Origin: Balneolia bacterium | GTDB lineage: Bacteria; Bacteroidota; Rhodothermia; Balneolales; Cyclonatronaceae | Reading direction: 5' to 3' | Length of the DNA: 34,451 nucleotides | Assembly: GCA_022565795.1 (NCBI GenBank) | Contig: JAIUMA010000035.1 | Location: 1 to 34,451 of the forward strand | Shown: positions 2,199 to 26,930 of the stretch, in pieces | Numbering within the stretch: position 1 is the first letter of the stretch | Layout: the number at the start of each line of letters is the position of its first letter | Notes under the pieces: model-generated | What the model was told of the DNA's origin: nothing | Database searches by the model: none | The model's input: only the letters and a program-made list of their open reading frames with translations | Translations under genes and position numbers: made by a program

Positions 2199-2669
2199 AT
2201 GTCTCAAAACCTCGACAATACAGATCTCAAAATTCTTCACGAATTACAGCAAAACGGACGCGCACGCCGTAACAAACTGGCTGAAATCGTGGGCTTATCC
2301 GTTCCTTCCGTTTCAGAGCGTATGAAAAAGCTGGAGGAAAAAAATCTGATTGAGGGCTATTACGCGGTGCTCAACCCGAGGAATTTCAACTTCGACATTA
2401 CCGCCTTCATTTTCGTACAGGTTGATAACTCTTCATTCTATCAGGATTTCGTTGAAGCATGCCAAAATGAAGCAGAGGTTTTAGAATGCCATTCTATCAC
2501 AGGCGACGGCTCCCACTTTCTCAAGATCCGTACCTACAACACCGAATCCCTGGAGAAGCTGCTGTCGAAAATCCAGACCATGCCCGGTGTAAAAAAGACG
2601 CGCTCGAATATCGTGCTTTCTACATTTAAAGAAACGCGTCAGCTCCCGCTCAAAGCTGAACTCGACTGA
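2199..2669 (+). CDS. Lrp/AsnC family transcriptional regulator
   Basis: 156 residues, the normal length for Lrp/AsnC proteins. The N-terminal helix-turn-helix covers about residues 5-60: LDNTDLKILHELQQNGRA, then LAEIVGLSVPSVSERMKKLE. A C-terminal RAM domain follows (about 65-145), including ECHSITGDGSHFLKIR, the usual position of effector contacts (the family's G.DY-like motif is GDGSHF here). These proteins form octamers and sense amino acids or related metabolites; the ligand cannot be told. The gene has its own probable promoter and is followed 19 bases later by the exported membrane-protein gene, so the two may share a transcript. Confidence 0.9.
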   Translation: MSQNLDNTDLKILHELQQNGRARRNKLAEIVGLSVPSVSERMKKLEEKNLIEGYYAVLNPRNFNFDITAFIFVQVDNSSFYQDFVEACQNEAEVLECHSITGDGSHFLKIRTYNTESLEKLLSKIQTMPGVKKTRSNIVLSTFKETRQLPLKAELD

Positions 2670-2688
2670 GACTCCGACCGCCAGCTAA

Positions 2689-4137
2689 ATGCCCGCTCTT
2701 AAAAGCACTCTGTTTGGATTCCTGCTCCTACTCCTGATTACCAGCGCCAGCGATGCTCAGCTTCGTTTTGGTGTAATTCTTGATGAAGAACAGACGGAGT
2801 CGCTTAGTGCTTCAGATTTAAATAACTTCTCGTCAAACGGCATCAACCTTATATCCCCCAGCGGTTTAGTTTCTACATCTCTAATCACTGATACCCTCAG
2901 GGTGATGCCCTCCCTGCCCTTTTCCTACCTCACACCGGGATCGCGGATGCTTCGGGAAAATGCCGCAAACCAAATCATCCGTTCTTTCCGTACACACTAC
3001 TACGAAAGCGGCAGCTTCAGCACGGAAAGCATCATCACCGGTCTCCATCCTGATTTGAGAAGCAGCCGCGTGCGATCATTTTATGAAAATGTGCGCAGCA
3101 GTTTTGCGGGCGAAAACCTGTACATCATTACCGATATGGTTGATGTACTCCCAGACGGTTTCACCGCTATTGCCTATGCAGGAATCTCGGCGGAGCAAAC
3201 CTCGGGCACGGGTGATATCATGCTGCTTTCATCGCACCGAAACCCAAACGGAGTTCGCGCTTATTACGATGAAATAAAGGCTGCAGCTGTATCTGGCTTT
3301 TCCACGCTGCTTATCCGCTACGATGACTATATCTGGCTTACTGAACAAGATGAATTCGGTTCTGAAATGCTGTATGCATTCAGCAATCAGCTGGCCGGGT
3401 CTGCCACGGTTCCCCTGCCTGCGCTTCAGCCGGAAACGCCTTCCATCCGTCTGGACGTGATTATTTTGCTGCTGCTATGGCTGTCGTTCAGCATTCACTT
3501 TCGGTTCAACCCGAACTACAACCGCTCGGTTATCCGCTATTTTGCCAGCTACTCGTTTATGGTTGAAGACATACTCCGCCGGCACATCATTATGGGCGGC
3601 TCTGCTTTGGTTGTATTTGTTCAGATATCGGTACTCTGGGGGCTTGTTCTGTCATCGGCTTTTACCGGCCTGTTCGGCACCGCGGGGCACGAGGCCTTCG
3701 GCTATCACTATTCGTTTATTCCGGGTACTTGGGGTGTTTTCGCGATTGGAGCAGTTGCCGGGACCCTCTTTAACGCGGTGGGCTTAATCTGGCTGATGAG
3801 CACATGCTTTCGTCAGGATATTTTCTCCATGGCCTCTACCTTTTTCCTGTGGCCTATGCACATCGGCTTTGTGCTTGCCACCATCCTCGTTACTGTTGCC
3901 GTTCTGATGCCGGGAAGCATCATTATCGTCGTTTTGTGCTTCGTCTTTCTTCTCCTTAACTATGTGGCCTTTTACCTGGCATCATCGGCCTTGGGCAGTG
4001 AGCCGACCCTCAGTCCGGCTATTCACTTCCTCACCGCACCGGCCCTGTATACTTTTGTCACCGTGCTTCTTGGCTACCTTGTCTACACCTACACGGATTT
4101 GTTCAACGTGCTAATGCTCAGCTTTAGACTGAGCTGA
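2689..4137 (+). CDS. Unrecognised exported protein with a C-terminal membrane domain
   Basis: 482 residues, family not recognised. The N-terminus looks like a signal peptide (basic start, then a hydrophobic run, residues 1-23, ending SASDAQ). Residues 24 to about 250 form a soluble, presumably periplasmic domain. From about 253 onward there are six or so hydrophobic segments (about 253-270, 298-328, 348-372, 379-408, 409-434, 447-478). The arrangement, a periplasmic sensor-like domain followed by a membrane block, has no catalytic motif that I can see. It is 19 bases downstream of the Lrp gene. Its stop is only 10 bases from the stop of the convergent rpoN gene, with no terminator hairpin between. 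Confidence 0.7.
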   Translation: MPALKSTLFGFLLLLLITSASDAQLRFGVILDEEQTESLSASDLNNFSSNGINLISPSGLVSTSLITDTLRVMPSLPFSYLTPGSRMLRENAANQIIRSFRTHYYESGSFSTESIITGLHPDLRSSRVRSFYENVRSSFAGENLYIITDMVDVLPDGFTAIAYAGISAEQTSGTGDIMLLSSHRNPNGVRAYYDEIKAAAVSGFSTLLIRYDDYIWLTEQDEFGSEMLYAFSNQLAGSATVPLPALQPETPSIRLDVIILLLLWLSFSIHFRFNPNYNRSVIRYFASYSFMVEDILRRHIIMGGSALVVFVQISVLWGLVLSSAFTGLFGTAGHEAFGYHYSFIPGTWGVFAIGAVAGTLFNAVGLIWLMSTCFRQDIFSMASTFFLWPMHIGFVLATILVTVAVLMPGSIIIVVLCFVFLLLNYVAFYLASSALGSEPTLSPAIHFLTAPALYTFVTVLLGYLVYTYTDLFNVLMLSFRLS

Positions 4138-4147
4138 GAAGTCTGGC

Positions 4148-5668
4148 TTAAATTACTTTTTTGCGAAGCCGGGCCGGAGGCAGCTTTAGCTGTTCACGGT
4201 ATTTGGTTACCGTACGGCGGGCGACCTTAAAGCCCTTCTCTTTCAGCATTTCCATAAGCTTCTGATCGCTGTAAGGCTTATCACCAGGCTCGTTTTCGAT
4301 AATCTCAGACAGGATATTTTTCACCTCAAGATTTGAAACTTCCTCACCGGATTCAGTTGTGATGCCTTCGTTAAAGAAATAGCGAAGTTCATAGACGCCA
4401 AAGGGAGTCTGAACATACTTTCCGTTAACCACTCTTGAGATTGTGGAAACATCCAGCTTTACTCGCTCGGCAATGTCCTTGAGGATCATCGGCTTTATCG
4501 ACTTCCCCGTTTTGAAAAACGTATCCTGAAGCGCAACAATCGTTTGCATTACTCCCATAAGGGTTTGCTGACGCTGACGAAGCATCTCCATAAACCACTT
4601 GGCCGACTCTATCTTACTCTTTACGAAAACGTGCGTTTCCTTCTGCTCGCGGTTTTTCTTGCTGCGGGCTTCCATGTCTTTGAGCATCTGCTCATAGCTT
4701 TTGGAAACGACAAGATCGGGCATATTCCGTCTGTTCATCGTGATGGTGAAGTCGCCTTGCTCATCGTTATCATCATCGGGTTCGTAGCGGACCTCGAAGT
4801 CGGGCGTTATATAATTTCCGGCGTCGGCAGCTGCCGTTTCGAATGAGCCGGGACGCGGATCGAGCATTCGCAGGCATTCATAGGCGGCGCGAAATTCATC
4901 TTCGGTTACGCCCAGCTTACGAATGATTTTCTCGAAGTGCTTTTTCTCGAACTCGTCCCATGTGTCTTTTACAATCTTTTTAGCCGTTTCCAGTCCTGCG
5001 GTATCCGGGTCCAGAATTTCGAGTTGTATGGAAAGGCATTCGCGCAAATCACGCGCCGCAATGCCGGGTGGATCGAGCCTCTGAATGCCCTGAAGGACTT
5101 CAAGGACCTCTTCTCTTGAAACAGGGATTCCGTTCTGAAACGCGATTCCGTCAGCTACGGAAGCGATGTCACGACGAAAATAGCCATCATCATCAATCGA
5201 GCCGATTATCTGGTCGGCTATAAGCTGCTGCTTCTCGTCAAGATCAAGCAGTATGACCTGCTGTTCGAGTTTCTCGAGCTGTGTCTCCCGGTATGGAGTC
5301 GGAATATCCTGCCAGTTGATGGCATCCGGATTGTATGTAGTCTGCGACGGATACTCGTCAATATCGTCGGTGTGATAGGCATCCCAGTCGACATCAGGGC
5401 CATCGTCCTCCCAGCTGTCGGCCGAAGCATCCGTATCCGTTGCGCTGTCGCCGGATTCACTGATTGAATCGTAATCAGCATCGTATTCATCAGTACTGGT
5501 TTCAGAGTCCTCGAGAGCAGGATTGGATTCCAGCTCTTCCTTGATTCGCTGCTCGATATGCTGCGAGGACATCTGCAGCATTTTGATATATTGTATCTGC
5601 TGAGGCGACAGCTTTTGCTGCTGCGTCTGCTTCTGAAACTGACCCTGCTTGATAGATTGTGAAAGCAT
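4148..5668 (-). CDS. rpoN: RNA polymerase sigma-54 factor
   Basis: 506 residues with all sigma-54 regions. Region I (about 1-50) is Gln-rich and has the activator-interacting pattern SPQQIQYIKMLQMSSQHIEQRI and ELESNPALED. Region II (about 51-120) is a long linker rich in Asp, Glu and Ser. The core-binding domain covers about 120-310, followed by a helix-turn-helix at about 375-410 (LKDIAERVKLDVSTISRVVNGKY). The RpoN box ARRTVTKYRE lies at 483-492, which reads the -24 element. The protein drives transcription only with AAA+ enhancer-binding activators; none is encoded in this window. The start codon overlaps the stop of the upstream DUF3109 gene by one base (TGATG), suggesting translational coupling. 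Confidence 0.97.
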   Translation of the reverse strand: MLSQSIKQGQFQKQTQQQKLSPQQIQYIKMLQMSSQHIEQRIKEELESNPALEDSETSTDEYDADYDSISESGDSATDTDASADSWEDDGPDVDWDAYHTDDIDEYPSQTTYNPDAINWQDIPTPYRETQLEKLEQQVILLDLDEKQQLIADQIIGSIDDDGYFRRDIASVADGIAFQNGIPVSREEVLEVLQGIQRLDPPGIAARDLRECLSIQLEILDPDTAGLETAKKIVKDTWDEFEKKHFEKIIRKLGVTEDEFRAAYECLRMLDPRPGSFETAAADAGNYITPDFEVRYEPDDDNDEQGDFTITMNRRNMPDLVVSKSYEQMLKDMEARSKKNREQKETHVFVKSKIESAKWFMEMLRQRQQTLMGVMQTIVALQDTFFKTGKSIKPMILKDIAERVKLDVSTISRVVNGKYVQTPFGVYELRYFFNEGITTESGEEVSNLEVKNILSEIIENEPGDKPYSDQKLMEMLKEKGFKVARRTVTKYREQLKLPPARLRKKVI

Positions 5669-20146: not shown

Positions 20147-21433
20147 TTATAAATCGGTTGCTTTAATTTCGCATTTCACGACTTCAATGCGGGAATGGCT
20201 TGCTTTTACAATGGTGAAAACCAGTCCGTTGATGCGCACCACCTCACCAACCTTCGGGATACGTCCGATTTCGCTTATGATGTAGCCCGCTATGGTCTCA
20301 AAATCGCTGTCGGCATCATTGAGACCAATCTCCGGAAAGTTCTCCTCAATATCCTCAATTTCAAGATTACCGGAGAAGATGTACCGCCCGCCAGACAGCT
20401 TTTTCATGATGGTCTCTTCGGTATCGTACTCATCCTGAATATCGCCAACCACCTCTTCAATAAGGTCTTCGCTGGTTACAAGCCCGGCCGTTCCACCGTA
20501 TTCATCAATTACAACGGCAAGTGAGATATTCAGGCGCCGGAATTCAGACAGCAGATCCGTAGACCTCTGAGATGAAGGCACATACTTCACCGGACGAATA
20601 ATCTCCTCAATATCATTCGGCTTTTTAAACAAATCGTAGGCAAAAATCACCCCTTTGATGTTGTCTATACTTCCCTCATATACCGGGATTTTCGAATAGC
20701 CGCTGGTGATAAACGTATTCAAAACCTCCTCAAGCGAGCTGGTAATGTCAACCGCTATTATTTCAGTACGGGGAATCATGGACTCCTTCACCCTCATTGA
20801 AGACATTTCCAGCACGTTGGTCAGAATTTCGGAATCGTCTTCATCGATATCGCTTTCGACATTGGAACCGATTTCTCTGAATATCATCTCGAAATCCTCT
20901 CTTCTGAAAAACTCCTCAACCGAATCAGCATCAGGATTAATTGTCTTTACAATTTTTTGAGCAATGGTATTAGCAACCCAGATAAATGGCCTTAAAATAA
21001 TGTTAGTTATCGCAATCGGGAATATCACAATTGGTATCAATCGGTCGGCGTGTACCCGGAAAATGCCTTTCGGGATTACTTCGCCCATAATCAGAATCAG
21101 AACCGAAGCCGTAACGGTTTGGAGAATCAGCATGGCGAGCTGCGTGGGTTCAGCATCGAACGCCCAGAGCCAGATGTCGGTAATCGGGGAGATCAAAAAC
21201 AGGGTCATCAACGTGGCGTAGGCAACGTTAACCACATTATTCCCTACCAGCGTAGTAGAAAGGTAGCTGTCCGGATTACGCAGAAAATAGGCCAGATAAT
21301 GGGCGCTGAGCGTGTTCTCACGCGAACGGATTTCGAGACGAAGACGGTTCGATGCCACATATCCGATTTCGGAGCCAGAGAAAAAACCGCTGAGAAGCAG
21401 CATAAATGCGATGATGAGCAGCTGTTCTATCAT
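20147..21433 (-). CDS. CNNM/CBS/CorC_HlyC membrane protein
   Basis: 428 residues in the usual order. The CNNM membrane domain comes first (about 1-185, with FFSGSEIGYVASNRLRLE and MGEVIPKG). A CBS pair follows (about 200-320, VKESMIPRTEIIAVD... GYSKIPVYEG, then VIDEYGGTAGLVTSEDLIEEVVGDIQDE). The CorC_HlyC domain closes the protein (about 335-425). Family members act in Mg2+ or Co2+ efflux or as gliding accessory proteins (GldE-like); annotation as 'hemolysin' is historical. It is 58 bases downstream of the enoyl-CoA hydratase gene on the same strand. A 93-base gap separates it from the convergent esterase gene, with no obvious terminator. Confidence 0.92.
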   Translation of the reverse strand: MIEQLLIIAFMLLLSGFFSGSEIGYVASNRLRLEIRSRENTLSAHYLAYFLRNPDSYLSTTLVGNNVVNVAYATLMTLFLISPITDIWLWAFDAEPTQLAMLILQTVTASVLILIMGEVIPKGIFRVHADRLIPIVIFPIAITNIILRPFIWVANTIAQKIVKTINPDADSVEEFFRREDFEMIFREIGSNVESDIDEDDSEILTNVLEMSSMRVKESMIPRTEIIAVDITSSLEEVLNTFITSGYSKIPVYEGSIDNIKGVIFAYDLFKKPNDIEEIIRPVKYVPSSQRSTDLLSEFRRLNISLAVVIDEYGGTAGLVTSEDLIEEVVGDIQDEYDTEETIMKKLSGGRYIFSGNLEIEDIEENFPEIGLNDADSDFETIAGYIISEIGRIPKVGEVVRINGLVFTIVKASHSRIEVVKCEIKATDL

Positions 21434-21491: not shown

Positions 21492-22277
21492 TTATTTCCC
21501 GGAAAATGAGGGTTTTCGCTTCTCCAGAAATGCGGAGGTTCCCTCTTTGAAGTCTTCAGTCGCACACAGCGAACCGAATAAATCGGCTTCTGACTGATAA
21601 CCGGCGTCTTTACCGTTCTCAGAAGCGTTAATGGCTTCAATTGCTTTTGCTAATGCAACCGGACCATTTTTCATCATTTTCGATAGCATTTCAACGGCCT
21701 GAGCCATCGCCTCTCCTTTACTTCCGGCAACGCTGTTGGCTAAACCAAGACCGAGGGCTTCATCAGATTTAATCATCCTGCCGGTCAGGACCAGCTCCAT
21801 AGCTTTGCCTTTGCCCACAACGCGGGTTAGGCGCTGCGTACCGCCGTAGCCCGGTATGAGGCCAAGACTTACTTCCGGAAGTCCGAATACCACGTTTTCT
21901 GTGGCTATGCGAACATGACATGCCAGCGCAAGCTCAGAACCGCCACCAAGCGCATAGCCGTTTACTAAAGCAATAACCGGCTTTGTACAGTTTTCTATTC
22001 CTGAGAAAATACGCTGACCGTTTATAGCAAGATCCCGCCCCGTAATGGCGTCAAGGCCTGAAAGCTCTTTGATATCAGCGCCGGCCACAAAAGCTTTTTC
22101 ACCGGAGCCGGTCACAATTACAGCACGAACGTCCTCTGCTTTTTGTATCCATACGAAAGCTTCCTCCAGCTCGGAGAGCACTTTTTGATTTAAAGCATTT
22201 AGCTTGTCGGGGCGGTTGATGGTTAAGGTGCATATTCCGTTTTCTGTTTCAAGCAGAAGCGTTTCAAACGTTGGCAT
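21492..22277 (-). CDS. Enoyl-CoA hydratase/isomerase (crotonase family)
   Basis: 261 residues from the ATG at 22277, the standard crotonase length; another ATG five codons upstream (22292) is possible. LTINRPDKLNALN near the start, AFVAGADIKEL (oxyanion-hole region) and NGYALGGGSELALACHVRIA are typical. The two catalytic glutamates of hydratases are present, in GGGSELALAC and FGLPEVSLGLIPGYGGTQRL. It probably hydrates trans-2-enoyl-CoA in fatty-acid or amino-acid breakdown. No other beta-oxidation gene is adjacent. It lies 59 bases after the small 54-residue ORF and may be at the end of the PspA cluster transcript. Confidence 0.9.
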   Translation of the reverse strand: MPTFETLLLETENGICTLTINRPDKLNALNQKVLSELEEAFVWIQKAEDVRAVIVTGSGEKAFVAGADIKELSGLDAITGRDLAINGQRIFSGIENCTKPVIALVNGYALGGGSELALACHVRIATENVVFGLPEVSLGLIPGYGGTQRLTRVVGKGKAMELVLTGRMIKSDEALGLGLANSVAGSKGEAMAQAVEMLSKMMKNGPVALAKAIEAINASENGKDAGYQSEADLFGSLCATEDFKEGTSAFLEKRKPSFSGK

Positions 22278-22336: not shown

Positions 22337-22501
22337 TCAATTTTCAGTTACCCGGCTCCCTTTGAACAGAGCGTCGGTTTCTTCCATTTCTTTTTCCAGC
22401 TTTTTCAAGTCGTCAAGATACGAAGGAACATTGTTTAAATCGTAGTTAATATCATCAAAAACGTTGTCTGTATCCTCGAGATCCATCAGAAGGCTGTCCA
22501 T
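22337..22501 (-). CDS. Small acidic 54-residue protein (PspA cluster)
   Basis: A short gene, 54 codons, between the membrane coiled-coil gene and the crotonase gene. The ATG at 22501 is 6 bases after the upstream stop, and the stop is TGA at 22339-22337. The protein starts MDSLLMDLEDTDNVFDDINY and continues with a helix rich in Lys and Glu (LDDLKKLEKEMEETD) likely to form a coiled coil. Family not recognised. The tight spacing and helical, amphipathic composition argue for a real gene translated with its neighbour. Fusing it with the crotonase is excluded because the frames differ. Confidence 0.6.
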   Translation of the reverse strand: MDSLLMDLEDTDNVFDDINYDLNNVPSYLDDLKKLEKEMEETDALFKGSRVTEN

Positions 22502-22507
22502 CTGCTG

Positions 22508-23200
22508 TTAGATTTCAGCAGGGTTACCAAGAGTCATCGATTTCTCGTAAATATACCGTATGGTATCCTCGATTGTCTTAAGCTGTGAATCTGAAATTAA
22601 GTATTTTTCGTGAGCCGCTCCATATTTTTCAAGACGCTTATTTAAGATATTCAGCCTTCTTTCGAGCACACGCGCCAGCTTTGGGGAATCGGTATTGTTG
22701 ATTTCCACCTGCGTTTTTTCGACCTCTGACTGCAAATGGGTCTGCGTCGTATTATTCAGATAAAACCGGTAGCGCTCGTTTCCCTCAAGCAGCATCATAT
22801 AGCTGGTTAACAGCGCCTCAATTCTGGTGTTGATGCTATCCGCAAGCCCCTGTGAGGTATAGTTGATCTTCGAAAGATTATCCCGAACCAGCCCTGTAAT
22901 ATGCTTCAGCACTAAAAACCGTTTTTGAGAGGCTTCGCTCAGCTCGCCAAAAATCCTGCGCTCGTCGAAACGGCTGTTTCTCTCCTTAAACGCTCTCAAA
23001 TTCATGTGCTTTTGAAACCGCGCAGACCTCGGCACGGTACCCAGGTAAATTAACTCTGCGGCAACAGCACTGAAGATGATGATATTAACCAGAGAGTCGT
23101 AGCCGGCCAGAAAAAAGGCTGAAGAAAATGCGGCTATCAGAACGCCAAGATTCAGCGGATGAAGAAAAGCTTCTTTCGTGTAGTTAACAGGTTTTTCCAT
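22508..23200 (-). CDS. Two-helix membrane protein with long coiled coil (PspA cluster)
   Basis: 230 residues. Residues about 17-55 make two closely spaced membrane segments (LNLGVLIAAFSSAFFLAGY, then LVNIIIFSAVAAELIYLG). Residues about 75-220 are strongly helical and include two long charged stretches (VEKTQVEINNTDSPKLARVLERRLNILNKRLEKYG) typical of coiled coils facing the cytoplasm. No enzyme motif is seen. The family is not recognised. It follows the coiled-coil gene at 23270 with a 69-base gap and is followed at 6 bases by the small ORF. As a membrane anchor with a coiled coil next to PspA, it could be the membrane partner, the position PspB/C holds in enterobacteria; this is inference only. 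Confidence 0.75.
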   Translation of the reverse strand: MEKPVNYTKEAFLHPLNLGVLIAAFSSAFFLAGYDSLVNIIIFSAVAAELIYLGTVPRSARFQKHMNLRAFKERNSRFDERRIFGELSEASQKRFLVLKHITGLVRDNLSKINYTSQGLADSINTRIEALLTSYMMLLEGNERYRFYLNNTTQTHLQSEVEKTQVEINNTDSPKLARVLERRLNILNKRLEKYGAAHEKYLISDSQLKTIEDTIRYIYEKSMTLGNPAEI

Positions 23201-23269
23201 AACTCAGCAAACAGGTTGAAGATGAAAAGATATCAGAGCGTCCTTTTGTTTGTAACGCCTGAGCGGGGC

Positions 23270-23773
23270 TTACGTTTTTTTTCGCCCGATTGTTTTGCTG
23301 GCATTCACATTTGTCCGGGCCGGATCCGCTTCCGATTCACCGGTATCCTCTGAAGCTTTTCTAAGGCCGGTCTGCACGGTTTTTTCCGAAGTGATTTCTC
23401 CGGCCTTCTTTTCCATTTCCCGCTCGATTGTGCCCATATCAGCGCGGATTTCACTCAGGATATCCTTAGCGTTTTGTTTTCGGGTGAAGTCATGTGCGGC
23501 TTCGGCCTGCTCCGGGCTGATATTCTCACTTCCGGTTGATGCATTGTGATCGAGATACACTTCGAGACGGGCCTCAGCCTGCACGATTCGTTCGCGAACA
23601 GCCTGAAGCGCCCCCTGAAAAGATTCCAGCACGGGAGACGGATCAATTTCACGAAGGCTCTGCATCACCCTGGCTTTTCGTTCATAGGCCGCTAAACGCT
23701 TTTTCTGCTCCAGAAGCTGGCGGTAGTGCTCCTTGTACTCCTGCTTCATACGTTCACGTTCTTCCCGCGACAT
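23270..23773 (-). CDS. Coiled-coil protein with SKTIG tail (PspA cluster)
   Basis: 167 residues, soluble, almost wholly charged helix: MSREERERMKQEYKEHYRQ, EQKKRLAAYERKARVMQSL, then a helical segment VLESFQGALQAVRERIVQAEARLEVYL and a low-complexity tail. The last residues, NASKTIGRKKT, resemble the end of PspA (GSKTIGKQKES) encoded just upstream. The 14-base motif before its ATG is also shared with pspA. No known family is recognised. Its context and shared tail suggest that it works with PspA, for instance binding the same partner through the tail. Alternatively it arose by partial duplication of pspA's flanks. Sure that it is a gene; role unknown. Confidence 0.75.
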   Translation of the reverse strand: MSREERERMKQEYKEHYRQLLEQKKRLAAYERKARVMQSLREIDPSPVLESFQGALQAVRERIVQAEARLEVYLDHNASTGSENISPEQAEAAHDFTRKQNAKDILSEIRADMGTIEREMEKKAGEITSEKTVQTGLRKASEDTGESEADPARTNVNASKTIGRKKT

Positions 23774-23789
23774 GGCTGAAATCGTTTAA

Positions 23790-23803
23790 AGGATGATGTT
23801 TAC
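23790..23803 (-). repeat. 14-base motif upstream of the coiled-coil gene
   Basis: On the minus strand GTAAACATCATCCT ends 16 bases before the ATG at 23773. The same 14 bases, at the same 16-base distance, precede pspA (24653-24666). Confidence 0.7.
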
Positions 23804-23850
23804 TGTGATGGCTTCAAGCTTTCGAAACAAATAACTGAGTTCAACTGAGC

Positions 23851-24636
23851 TCAGCTTTCCTTCTGCTTGCCGATAGTCTTTGATCCGGCTTTCTCTTCCT
23901 TCACTTCATCATCACCGGAAATTTCGATGGTTTTTTCTTCAGGAGTCGTTTCCTTTTTGGGCTCTTCGGCCGGGGCCCTGCCCATTTCACGTTTAAACTG
24001 AGCCACCAGATCAGATGCACGCATGCGCTCAGCATCGAGCTCGATTTCCAACGTTTCGGTGTCCAGACTGTCCATGGCCATTTCAATACGGGCCTCATTT
24101 TTAGCTGTCCGTTCATTCAGGCGGTTTACCATTTCAGAATGGGTGGAATCCAGACCAGTGATTTCAAATTTCTCCAATGTATCCGCAATTTTTGACTGCC
24201 ATTGCGCTCTTTCGTGCGCCTGAAGCGCCTCACGGGCCTCACGGATTTTGCGGTCTTTTTCGCGCATGAAGGTTTTCTTCACCTGAAGCGATTTTTCATA
24301 CGCCTGCTCGGCAAACTTCTCCTGCTCAGCGGTTGAAATTATGTTTTCGCGAGCCTTCTCGAGCTGAAGTGCATAAGTCTCTGCGATATCGTCCCGGTTA
24401 GCGTTAATTGCCGATTTGATCTTGTTGGTGAGCTCCATCTCGTGCTTTTCGTACTTTTGGCGCTCTTTACGCAGCATAACCAGATTAGCCTTAACAGTGG
24501 CAATGTTCTCATTCATCTTGGGCACCTGATCATTAAGCTCTCTGATGTTCTGCTCCAGAATTAGCTTTGGATCTTCAATACTCGACACAAATCCACCGAA
24601 GAGAGACTTAATTGCTCTTACAAATCGATTCCACAT
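23851..24636 (-). CDS. pspA: PspA/IM30 family membrane-stress protein
   Basis: 261 residues. The N-terminal amphipathic helix MWNRFVRAIKSLFGGFVSSIEDP and the following LILEQNIRELNDQVPKMNENIATVKAN are typical of PspA/IM30/Vipp1. Residues 30-215 are the long helical hairpin that assembles into rods or rings on stressed membranes. Beyond the usual roughly 220 residues there is an acidic tail (EEPKKETTPEEKTIEISGDDEVKEE) ending in SKTIGKQKES. No PspB, PspC or PspF gene is present; instead the three downstream genes encode coiled-coil and membrane proteins. A stable hairpin lies upstream at 24673-24709. The family is certain; the local partners are not known. Confidence 0.93.
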   Translation of the reverse strand: MWNRFVRAIKSLFGGFVSSIEDPKLILEQNIRELNDQVPKMNENIATVKANLVMLRKERQKYEKHEMELTNKIKSAINANRDDIAETYALQLEKARENIISTAEQEKFAEQAYEKSLQVKKTFMREKDRKIREAREALQAHERAQWQSKIADTLEKFEITGLDSTHSEMVNRLNERTAKNEARIEMAMDSLDTETLEIELDAERMRASDLVAQFKREMGRAPAEEPKKETTPEEKTIEISGDDEVKEEKAGSKTIGKQKES

Positions 24637-24765: not shown

Positions 24766-26130
24766 CTAAAGTGCCGGAACTTCATTATAATCAAAATCCC
24801 GGATTCCTTTTGCATCTACAACATGCGTGATAAGCGTTTTAATTTCACCAGGCTTGTCGGCTATGCTGTATGCCTGATTCATTAAATCGAGAGCCACATC
24901 AAACTGTTGCTGCTTGTTCGTATGCAGCACGGCAATTGTTTCACCTTTTTTCACTTTGTCGCCAATTTTCTTGTGAAGCACAATTCCGGCCGATGGATCA
25001 ACGGGCTGCGTTTTCTCCTTGCGCCCTGCCCCAAGCTCAAGCGACGCCATCCCAACCTGATAGGCATCAATAGCGCTTACGAAGCCGTCGGCGGCCGCGG
25101 TGAACTCCGTTTTATGCGAAGCCGGCTTGTAGCTGCCCGGATCGTCAATAACTGAAACGTCGCCGCCCTGCTCAATAACAATTTCACGAAGCTTTTTAAG
25201 CGCCGAGCCGTTGTTTATGGTCGCCTGAGCCATTTCGATTCCGTCATTTAGAGTATCCGCACGACCGCCAAGCTGGATCATGGAGCCGGCCAGCAGCAGC
25301 GTTACTTCGCGAACGTCATCAGGCCACTCGTCTTTCAGGCAGTAGATGCTCTCCTCAACTTCGAGCCAGTTGCCGATTTTATTACCAAGAGGCTGATCCA
25401 TGTTTGTGAGGAAAGCAACCGTCTCCTTATTAAACTCGGTGCCGATATCAACCAGACGGCGTGCGAGAATCTTGGCCTGCTCAGGATCCTTAATGAATGC
25501 TCCGGAGCCATGCTTTACATCCAGCACAAGCGCGTCGATACCTTCGGCAAGTTTCTTGCTCATAATGCTGCTGGCTATCAGTGGAATACACTCTACGGTT
25601 GCTGTAACGTCGCGAAGGGCGTACAGTCGCTTGTCGGCAGGCGCGATGTCTTCAGTCTGACCAATAAATACGAGATTATGCTTTGCAATTACCTCAACAT
25701 AGCGCTTTAGGTCCAGATTTACGTCGAATCCGGGAATCGATTCAAGCTTGTCGAGCGTACCGCCGGTATGACCAAGTCCGCGGCCGGAAATCATAGGAAC
25801 CGGAACACCTGCCGCAGCGACAATAGGCGCCAGAATAAGAGAGAGCTTATCACCAACGCCCCCCGTAGAGTGCTTATCTACTTTGATTCCGGAAATGCTG
25901 CCCAGGTCCATCACCTTGCCGGAGTGGAGCATAGCATAAGCGATAGCTGAAGCCTCTTCATCATTCATTCCCTTCATAAACACGGCCATAAGAAACGCGC
26001 TCATCTGATAATCGGGAAGCTCGTCGCGGGTATAGGCGTCGATCAGATATTGAATTTCATCTTTGGTGAGATTGCCTCCGTCGCGCTTGCGGCGGATAAG
26101 TGATACTACGTTATACGTTTTGCTCGTCAT
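24766..26130 (-). CDS. Pyrimidine-nucleoside (thymidine) phosphorylase
   Basis: 454 residues, the length of DeoA/Pdp proteins. The family signature SGRGLGHTGGTLDKLESIPGF is complete (about 114-134). The phosphate site KHSTGGVGDK (about 85-94) and the catalytic-loop residues KHGSGAF are present. The C-terminal domain HKKIGDKVKKGETIAVLHTN is the usual biotin-carrier-like fold. It converts (deoxy)uridine or thymidine plus phosphate to base and (deoxy)ribose-1-phosphate. Together with deoC at 14913 this supports deoxynucleoside catabolism. The Met/Lys-based choice between thymidine and broader pyrimidine specificity was not resolved. The upstream gap is divergent with the 26361 gene. Confidence 0.95.
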   Translation of the reverse strand: MTSKTYNVVSLIRRKRDGGNLTKDEIQYLIDAYTRDELPDYQMSAFLMAVFMKGMNDEEASAIAYAMLHSGKVMDLGSISGIKVDKHSTGGVGDKLSLILAPIVAAAGVPVPMISGRGLGHTGGTLDKLESIPGFDVNLDLKRYVEVIAKHNLVFIGQTEDIAPADKRLYALRDVTATVECIPLIASSIMSKKLAEGIDALVLDVKHGSGAFIKDPEQAKILARRLVDIGTEFNKETVAFLTNMDQPLGNKIGNWLEVEESIYCLKDEWPDDVREVTLLLAGSMIQLGGRADTLNDGIEMAQATINNGSALKKLREIVIEQGGDVSVIDDPGSYKPASHKTEFTAAADGFVSAIDAYQVGMASLELGAGRKEKTQPVDPSAGIVLHKKIGDKVKKGETIAVLHTNKQQQFDVALDLMNQAYSIADKPGEIKTLITHVVDAKGIRDFDYNEVPAL

Positions 26131-26360: not shown

Positions 26361-26930
26361 ATGGAAACCCTGATTATTCTCTTCGTCATCTATTCGCTGT
26401 TTCAGTGGCTGTTTGGTGACAATAAGAAGAAACAGCAGCAGAAGCAACGCCAGCAGCAGCAACAGCAGCGCGATCAGCGTGCTTCCGGAAGAGAAGAAGC
26501 CCAGGAGGCTCCGCAGAGCTGGGAAGACGCCATGGCTGAGCTGGAGTCCATTTTTTCGGGCGAGTCATCGCGTCGGCAAGAGCCGAAGCCTGAGCCTGTT
26601 CCCGTTCAGCAAACGGAAACCTACAATCGCCCGCAGACAAAGCGCGAACAAATATCAGAAAATCCATTCAGCGATGATATGTCCAGCAAAAGGCGCTCAC
26701 AGAATGCCGGTATTGATACCAACCAGCTGGAGTCAGCCGGAAACCCGATTTACAGCGGTGCAATCGGCGAATCGGATGAGGATTACGAAAAAATTGGCGG
26801 CATCGACAGTGGAGATGCCAAAGATGTTCTGCAATTTATCACCGATCCTGAAGCCGCCCGTAAAGCCATCATCATGAAGGAAATTTTAGACCGCCCGAAA
26901 TCACAGCGCAGATCAGCCCGTGTTTTTTAA
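26361..26930 (+). CDS. Membrane-anchored Gln-rich protein, function unknown
   Basis: 189 residues. METLIILFVIYSLFQWLF is a single N-terminal membrane helix. A Gln/Lys/Arg run follows (residues 22-41), then an acidic, low-complexity region to about 150. A more ordered C-terminal motif, DAARKAIIMKEILDRP-like (DPEAARKAIIMKEILDRPKS, about 163-182), resembles the 'RKAVI..EILNR' ends of many short Bacteroidota proteins; this comparison is from memory. The cytoplasm would hold most of it if the N-terminus is outside. It stands alone before pdxB, 40 bases away, and faces the phosphorylase gene divergently. Confidence 0.7.
   Translation: METLIILFVIYSLFQWLFGDNKKKQQQKQRQQQQQQRDQRASGREEAQEAPQSWEDAMAELESIFSGESSRRQEPKPEPVPVQQTETYNRPQTKREQISENPFSDDMSSKRRSQNAGIDTNQLESAGNPIYSGAIGESDEDYEKIGGIDSGDAKDVLQFITDPEAARKAIIMKEILDRPKSQRRSARVF

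Follow-up and report, generated by a model that had tools for sequence, protein, structure and literature searches.

The window, that is, the whole stretch of 34,451 nucleotides that was analysed (contig JAIUMA010000035.1 of a Balneolia bacterium), was found to contain a pspA-centred cluster with all genes on the minus strand, flanked by the genes for a pyrimidine-nucleoside phosphorylase and an enoyl-CoA hydratase (ECH) (Table 1). Four open reading frames (ORFs) were found on the same strand, as the original prediction had them; however, the cluster comprises three genes, namely pspA, CC and TM, and not four. No real match was obtained in Pfam and NCBIfam for any of the three ORFs downstream of pspA. 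The ECH ORF was listed with a TTG start at 22340, and its family match starts from about residue 25-31. The scan for promoters and terminators across the locus remained at chance level and did not indicate the limits of an operon. Beside the phosphorylase gene, the window was also found to encode a membrane-anchored, glutamine-rich, probably disordered protein (26361-26930, plus strand), which gave no family match above the cut-off and was recognised in two same-genus genomes only.

Table 1. Features of the pspA locus, numbered by position in the window
Feature	Position	Strand	Length and evidence
Pyrimidine-nucleoside phosphorylase, conserved upstream neighbour of pspA	24766..26130	-	TIGR02644 above cut-off; synteny
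pspA, PspA/IM30 (ESCRT-III superfamily), amphipathic N-terminal helix MWNRFVRAIKSLFGG	23851..24636	-	261 aa; PF04012
KTIG motif in the disordered C-terminal tail of PspA (..AGSKTIGKQKES)	23867..23880	-	motif scan
CC, hairpin-less PspA paralogue (coiled-coil ORF)	23270..23773	-	167 aa; hhalign, AF2 model
KTIG motif in the C-terminal tail of CC (..NASKTIGRKKT)	23283..23296	-	motif scan
TM membrane protein, assembled as residues 1-230; coordinates include the in-frame TAA as final three bases	22508..23200	-	230 aa; two TM helices, then long helical cytoplasmic domain
In-frame TAA cutting the TM gene	22508..22510	-	Glu codon in nearest relatives
Severed C-terminal tail of the TM protein (54-aa acidic ORF, 22501-22337)	22337..22507	-	comparison with relatives
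Enoyl-CoA hydratase/isomerase (ECH), conserved downstream neighbour	21492..22277	-	PF00378; synteny
CNNM/CorC transporter-like (GldE-like) protein, conserved downstream neighbour	20147..21433	-	PF01595, PF03471; synteny

PspA and the coiled-coil protein

The product of pspA was found to match PF04012 in Pfam (55.6 bits against a cut-off of 33.9, profile positions 3-203 of 220). The PspA profile of the class was aligned end to end with the Vipp1/PspA structures 7o3w and 6zvr (Synechocystis and Nostoc) and spans a0-a5; as judged from these alignments, the protein is a genuine full-length PspA/IM30.

The coiled-coil protein had been described in the original prediction as an unfamiliar partner, and it was found instead to be related to PspA. 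In the profile-profile comparison, CC matched residues 127-221 of PspA (hhalign 99.3%, E 1.3e-20), and the control profiles (reversed, the N-terminal half of PspA, and the TM family) gave E of about 0.03-0.5 (E of about 0.5 for the reversed profiles; E 0.5 for the N-terminal PspA profile 1-126; about 1% for the TM family as the second control). A whole-genome search with PspA alone matched both pspA and the CC gene in many genomes. The AlphaFold2 model of CC (pLDDT 81) contained helices at residues 3-42, 46-79, and 87-126 followed by a disordered tail, and the three predicted helices correspond to the end of a2/a3, to a4, and to a5 of PspA. A Foldseek search with this model gave nothing useful, as expected of three extended helices. 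In PspA, a hairpin at residues 24-142 is followed by a4 and a5, and a5 swaps onto the hairpin tip of the neighbouring subunit (PMC8281802). By this anatomy, CC is predicted to keep the donor helix a5 and to lack a0 and the acceptor hairpin. The protein was labelled as PspA-derived rather than as PspA, since it matched PspA residues 127-221 only and PF04012 was not among the families matched by any of the 43 CC members; going by its sequence, CC is a paralogue without a0 and the a1/a2 hairpin and is not itself a PspA. As a5 is kept without an acceptor hairpin, we infer that CC may serve as a cap or tuner of the PspA polymer.

The tails of PspA and CC were found to share a K[TS]-[IV]-G motif. 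Counted as K/R-T/S-I/L/V/M-G, the motif was present in 106/118 PspA tails and 105/107 CC tails (1.9 and 1.5 expected from shuffled tails, respectively) and in 0/119 TM tails, and these counts are not independent since the PspA, CC, and TM sequence sets partly overlap in species. A DNA scan of the genome for the KTIG form gave ten matches, including PspA and CC; none of the other eight was located at the C-terminus of a convincing gene, and the occurrences near the ends of three very short ORFs are probably due to chance. Where PspA lacked the motif and CC was present, CC was found to contain two copies in 9/9 cases against 11/98 otherwise (Fisher p 5e-8). On the tree, this pattern comes down to a single event or two, so that a motif compensation between PspA and CC is suggestive only.

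No recognisable CC gene was found at seven loci (L120, L133, L126, L127, L157, L161, and L216), where pspA with the tail motif and TM were kept. Since several lineages have lost CC while TM and the PspA motif were kept, CC is not essential, and this suggests that it is accessory.

The TM protein and its interrupted gene

The TM protein of a full-length relative (L143) was predicted to combine two TM helices with a long cytoplasmic bundle of helices (pLDDT 83.5). The family has no name in the databases, and the members found to date all belong to the Rhodothermia/Balneolia class, apart from those of one distant genome of the phylum. A Pfam search with 52 TM members gave nothing beyond scattered coiled-coil noise, and no convincing solved-structure relative of the family was found. 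BAR domains were present among the structural matches of the cytoplasmic bundle at a best Foldseek E of 0.06 and a VIA Z of 9-10 (13 is advised for helical bundles), and these scores were tied with those of many unrelated helical bundles. The assignment of TM to PspA, Snf7, or another known family was rejected (about 1% for the TM profile against PspA). A basic [KR]x[KR] pattern was observed near the C-terminus in 98/119 TM members (e.g. L142 and L116), and it resembles the basic ends of many PspA tails.

In the window, the 54-aa ORF was found to be in frame with the TM ORF and separated from it by ATC-TAA-CAG-CAG-ATG only. In same-genus relatives, the TM and the 54-aa regions lie within a single open frame of about 290-317 codons, and 80/80 named relatives (from GTDB genomes) were found to contain a joined, full-length TM protein of 283-332 aa. 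The position of the TAA is occupied by GAA or GAG (Glu) in the nearest relatives, and the TM profile of the class runs straight through the stop. The severed tail contained no further stops, and its comparison with the three nearest relatives gave identity of 0.48-0.57 and pN/pS of 0.37-0.47, in the same range as intact pairs. The original prediction had proposed an order of PspA filament, adaptor, membrane anchor, and small regulator; the first three parts were a fair sketch, the adaptor being a PspA paralogue, and the regulator was the part that failed. With all named relatives joined and a Glu codon at the stop, the 54-aa ORF was rejected as an independent gene, and by comparison with these relatives the 'acidic protein' is the severed C-terminal tail of the TM protein. 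As the severed tail changes no faster than intact tails, the stop appears to be a very recent nonsense change, a sequencing error, or a by-passed codon. The small acidic 'gene' should be neither annotated nor pursued as a regulator, and the gene count is corrected. A second, independent disruption of a TM gene, by a frame break, was observed in another genome of the order (L135, G065:C1:2082564-2083438).

Conservation of the locus and a double-AAA+ ATPase

The pspA gene was found in 107/108 and the TM gene in 106/108 genomes of the class, and the refuting outcome named in the original prediction, neighbours not conserved with pspA in relatives, did not occur. The 40 inspected regions contained one conserved order, pspA-CC-TM, on the same strand and close together with few gene losses, and this order was also met at almost every one of the 80 named loci, which range over Balneolales, Fodinibius, Gracilimonas, Rhodohalobacter, Salinivenus, Rhodothermus, and Rubrivirga. 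One genome (G324) was found without pspA, CC, and TM, and another, small genome (G310, L134) kept pspA, with CC and TM absent and the PspA tail without the motif. The flanking metabolic genes were nearly as conserved in position as the core genes; since the nucleoside phosphorylase and the enoyl-CoA hydratase stand within the conserved block, adjacency alone is weak evidence. Outside the class, a profile search of about 220 genomes of the phylum found TM in a single distant genome (G280).

The TM homologue of G280 shows 18-25% identity over its length and is directly followed by an AAA+ ATPase gene. Two TM homologues were observed in this genome, one at L236:6881-10409 (G280:C160), with genes for the AAA+ ATPase and for a coiled-coil protein of 236 aa after it, and the other at a contig end (L239:269-1183, G280:C17). 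No PspA was detected beside the TM-AAA+ pair in G280, and no relative of the distant TM homologue was found in viral contigs.

The ATPase was found to belong to PF00004, in the classical AAA clade, and is CDC48/CdvC-related; its first AAA-like region lacks Walker A, followed by an intact second AAA domain, and Pfam gave no MIT domain match in the G280 ATPase. One clear ortholog was present in 40/40 genomes of the class. It was located within the pspA cluster, after the CNNM gene and on the same strand, in 18/19 Balneolales genomes checked, the exception being the genome of the window itself, where it lies outside the window on contig C113. The sole double-AAA+ ATPase of that genome (G000:C113:3077-4414; L251, gene 2609-4426) was found between dehydrogenase E1 and M28-type peptidase genes. 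In 21 sampled members of the class outside Balneolales, including Rhodothermales, the gene was located elsewhere than the pspA cluster. The TM-AAA+ neighbourhood was first met in one lineage, and a second lineage then showed this linkage too, which argues for more than general synteny; as judged from gene neighbourhoods, the ATPase is genomically tied to the TM protein in two distant lineages. The original prediction was incomplete in this respect, as the double-AAA+ ATPase, directly downstream in most Balneolales and outside the window here, is likely a central partner.

Relation to known systems and interpretation

PspA is the effector here as in the enterobacterial pspFABC and Bacillus lia operons, whereas the cluster contains no PspF, PspB, PspC, or Lia genes, in agreement with the original prediction that the partners differ from these. 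Two PspC-domain genes were observed on other contigs, unlinked to pspA (G000:C4:69552-69722 and G000:C15:12766-12939), and PspC-domain genes were present in 59/60 members of the class searched. The pspA product is a full-length member of PspA/Vipp1 (PF04012) by its profile match, and differs from the family at large in the class-conserved K[TS][IV]G tail, the hairpin-less paralogue, and the new membrane protein that accompany it.

A literature search on PspA in Salinibacter or Balneola gave nothing useful. The pspA-CC-TM locus was found in Salinivenus and other Salinibacter-type genomes, and the CBH accessions are those of Salinibacter ruber M8. The Bacteroidetes neighbourhood CBH24266.1, described in the main text of Ravi et al. 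2024 (PMC11237479) as containing PspA, Snf7, and a third, PspA-like coiled-coil protein, is therefore probably the same locus in Salinibacter. The same text states that bacterial PspA occasionally co-occurs with a protein of two AAA+ domains, the first of them inactive, and the regulation of assembly in PspA homologues without an associated AAA ATPase was called unknown there (Ravi et al. 2024, PMC11237479). The likeness to the present locus thus extends to the AAA+ with an inactive first domain linked to PspA and to the PspA-like coiled-coil third gene, whereas that main text, which gives one or two sentences per neighbourhood, makes no mention of the missing hairpin, the shared tail motif, the two-TM family, the class-wide conservation, or the TM-AAA+ link. 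New here are the exact extent of CC, the shared tail motif, the two-TM family with its class-wide conservation, the TM-AAA+ link in two lineages, and the correction of the gene count.

With the eukaryotic and archaeal ESCRT-III/Vps4 system, the locus shares the polymer superfamily, an AAA ATPase that falls in the classical clade, and short peptides conserved in the C-terminal tails, and the AAA+ gene is linked to that of an ESCRT-III-type protein in Balneolales clusters, being unlinked in the genome of the window. It differs in that the ATPase has tandem AAA regions and no detected MIT domain, a membrane anchor is added, and the KTIG tail motif, compared by eye, is unlike MIM. This bacterial module may be related to the ESCRT machine that remodels membranes. 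Tentatively, and with somewhat less than even confidence, the locus is read from its sequence as a remodelling module specific to the class and built on a PspA of the bacterial ESCRT-III type, together with a membrane anchor, probably a dedicated AAA+, and recruitment by a tail peptide. PspA would polymerise on the inner membrane, and CC would dock on PspA via a5, without a hairpin to receive the next subunit, and so cap or tune the polymer. Through the shared tail peptide, the filament would be recruited to a complex anchored in the membrane, made up of the anchor protein, the AAA+ ATPase, or both, and this complex would extract or remodel PspA subunits; the precedent is the recruitment of Vps4 to ESCRT-III by MIM-type tails (PMC11746142). 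On this reading, either a recent nonsense change or a sequencing error interrupts the anchor gene in this assembly.

In another reading, the locus would be a control circuit of the Psp type that has no motor. PspA would be held at the membrane by the two-TM protein, a role that PspB/PspC or LiaI play elsewhere, CC would compete with PspA for this protein via the shared tail, and the AAA+ would be a chance neighbour; this is possible though doubtful. It accords with the pspA-TM pair being nearly universal in the class while the AAA+ linkage is limited to Balneolales and G280, and PspC homologues are present in the genome, but unlinked; a chance neighbour is nevertheless unlikely, as the AAA+ was first met beside the distant TM homologue and was afterwards found in the cluster of 18/19 Balneolales. 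A dedicated AAA+-driven bacterial ESCRT-III machine, in which PspA and CC co-assemble and a double-AAA+ ATPase, held at the membrane by the two-TM anchor, is recruited through the shared K[TS][IV]G tails, is rated as rather unlikely.

The near-fixed position of the flanking metabolic genes would also fit plain conserved synteny, with the phosphorylase-pspA-CC-TM-ECH-CNNM block having no joint function beyond shared transcription, but CC is derived from PspA and carries the same tail motif, and core genes were co-lost in G310 and G324; such a block without joint function is held to be improbable. It is very improbable that the 54-aa acidic product is a true regulator in a module of four genes, as in the original prediction, or that the gene is split yet functional, with its tail made by re-initiation. 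An ATG is indeed located 9 nt after the start of the TAA, and the tail is free of further stops and changes no faster than intact tails, yet a very recent mutation or a sequencing error would account for these data too, and the split was absent from all other genomes, the named relatives being intact throughout.

Under the tentative reading as a remodelling module, the cluster bears on the question of how the PspA polymer is disassembled without a Vps4-like motor, as it offers a polymer, a hairpin-less paralogue, a tail peptide, an anchor, and a motor. The lineages with cultured members, such as Gracilimonas, Fodinibius, and Rhodohalobacter, make this question directly testable, and a dedicated AAA+-driven machine, if true, would give bacteria a working counterpart of Vps4.
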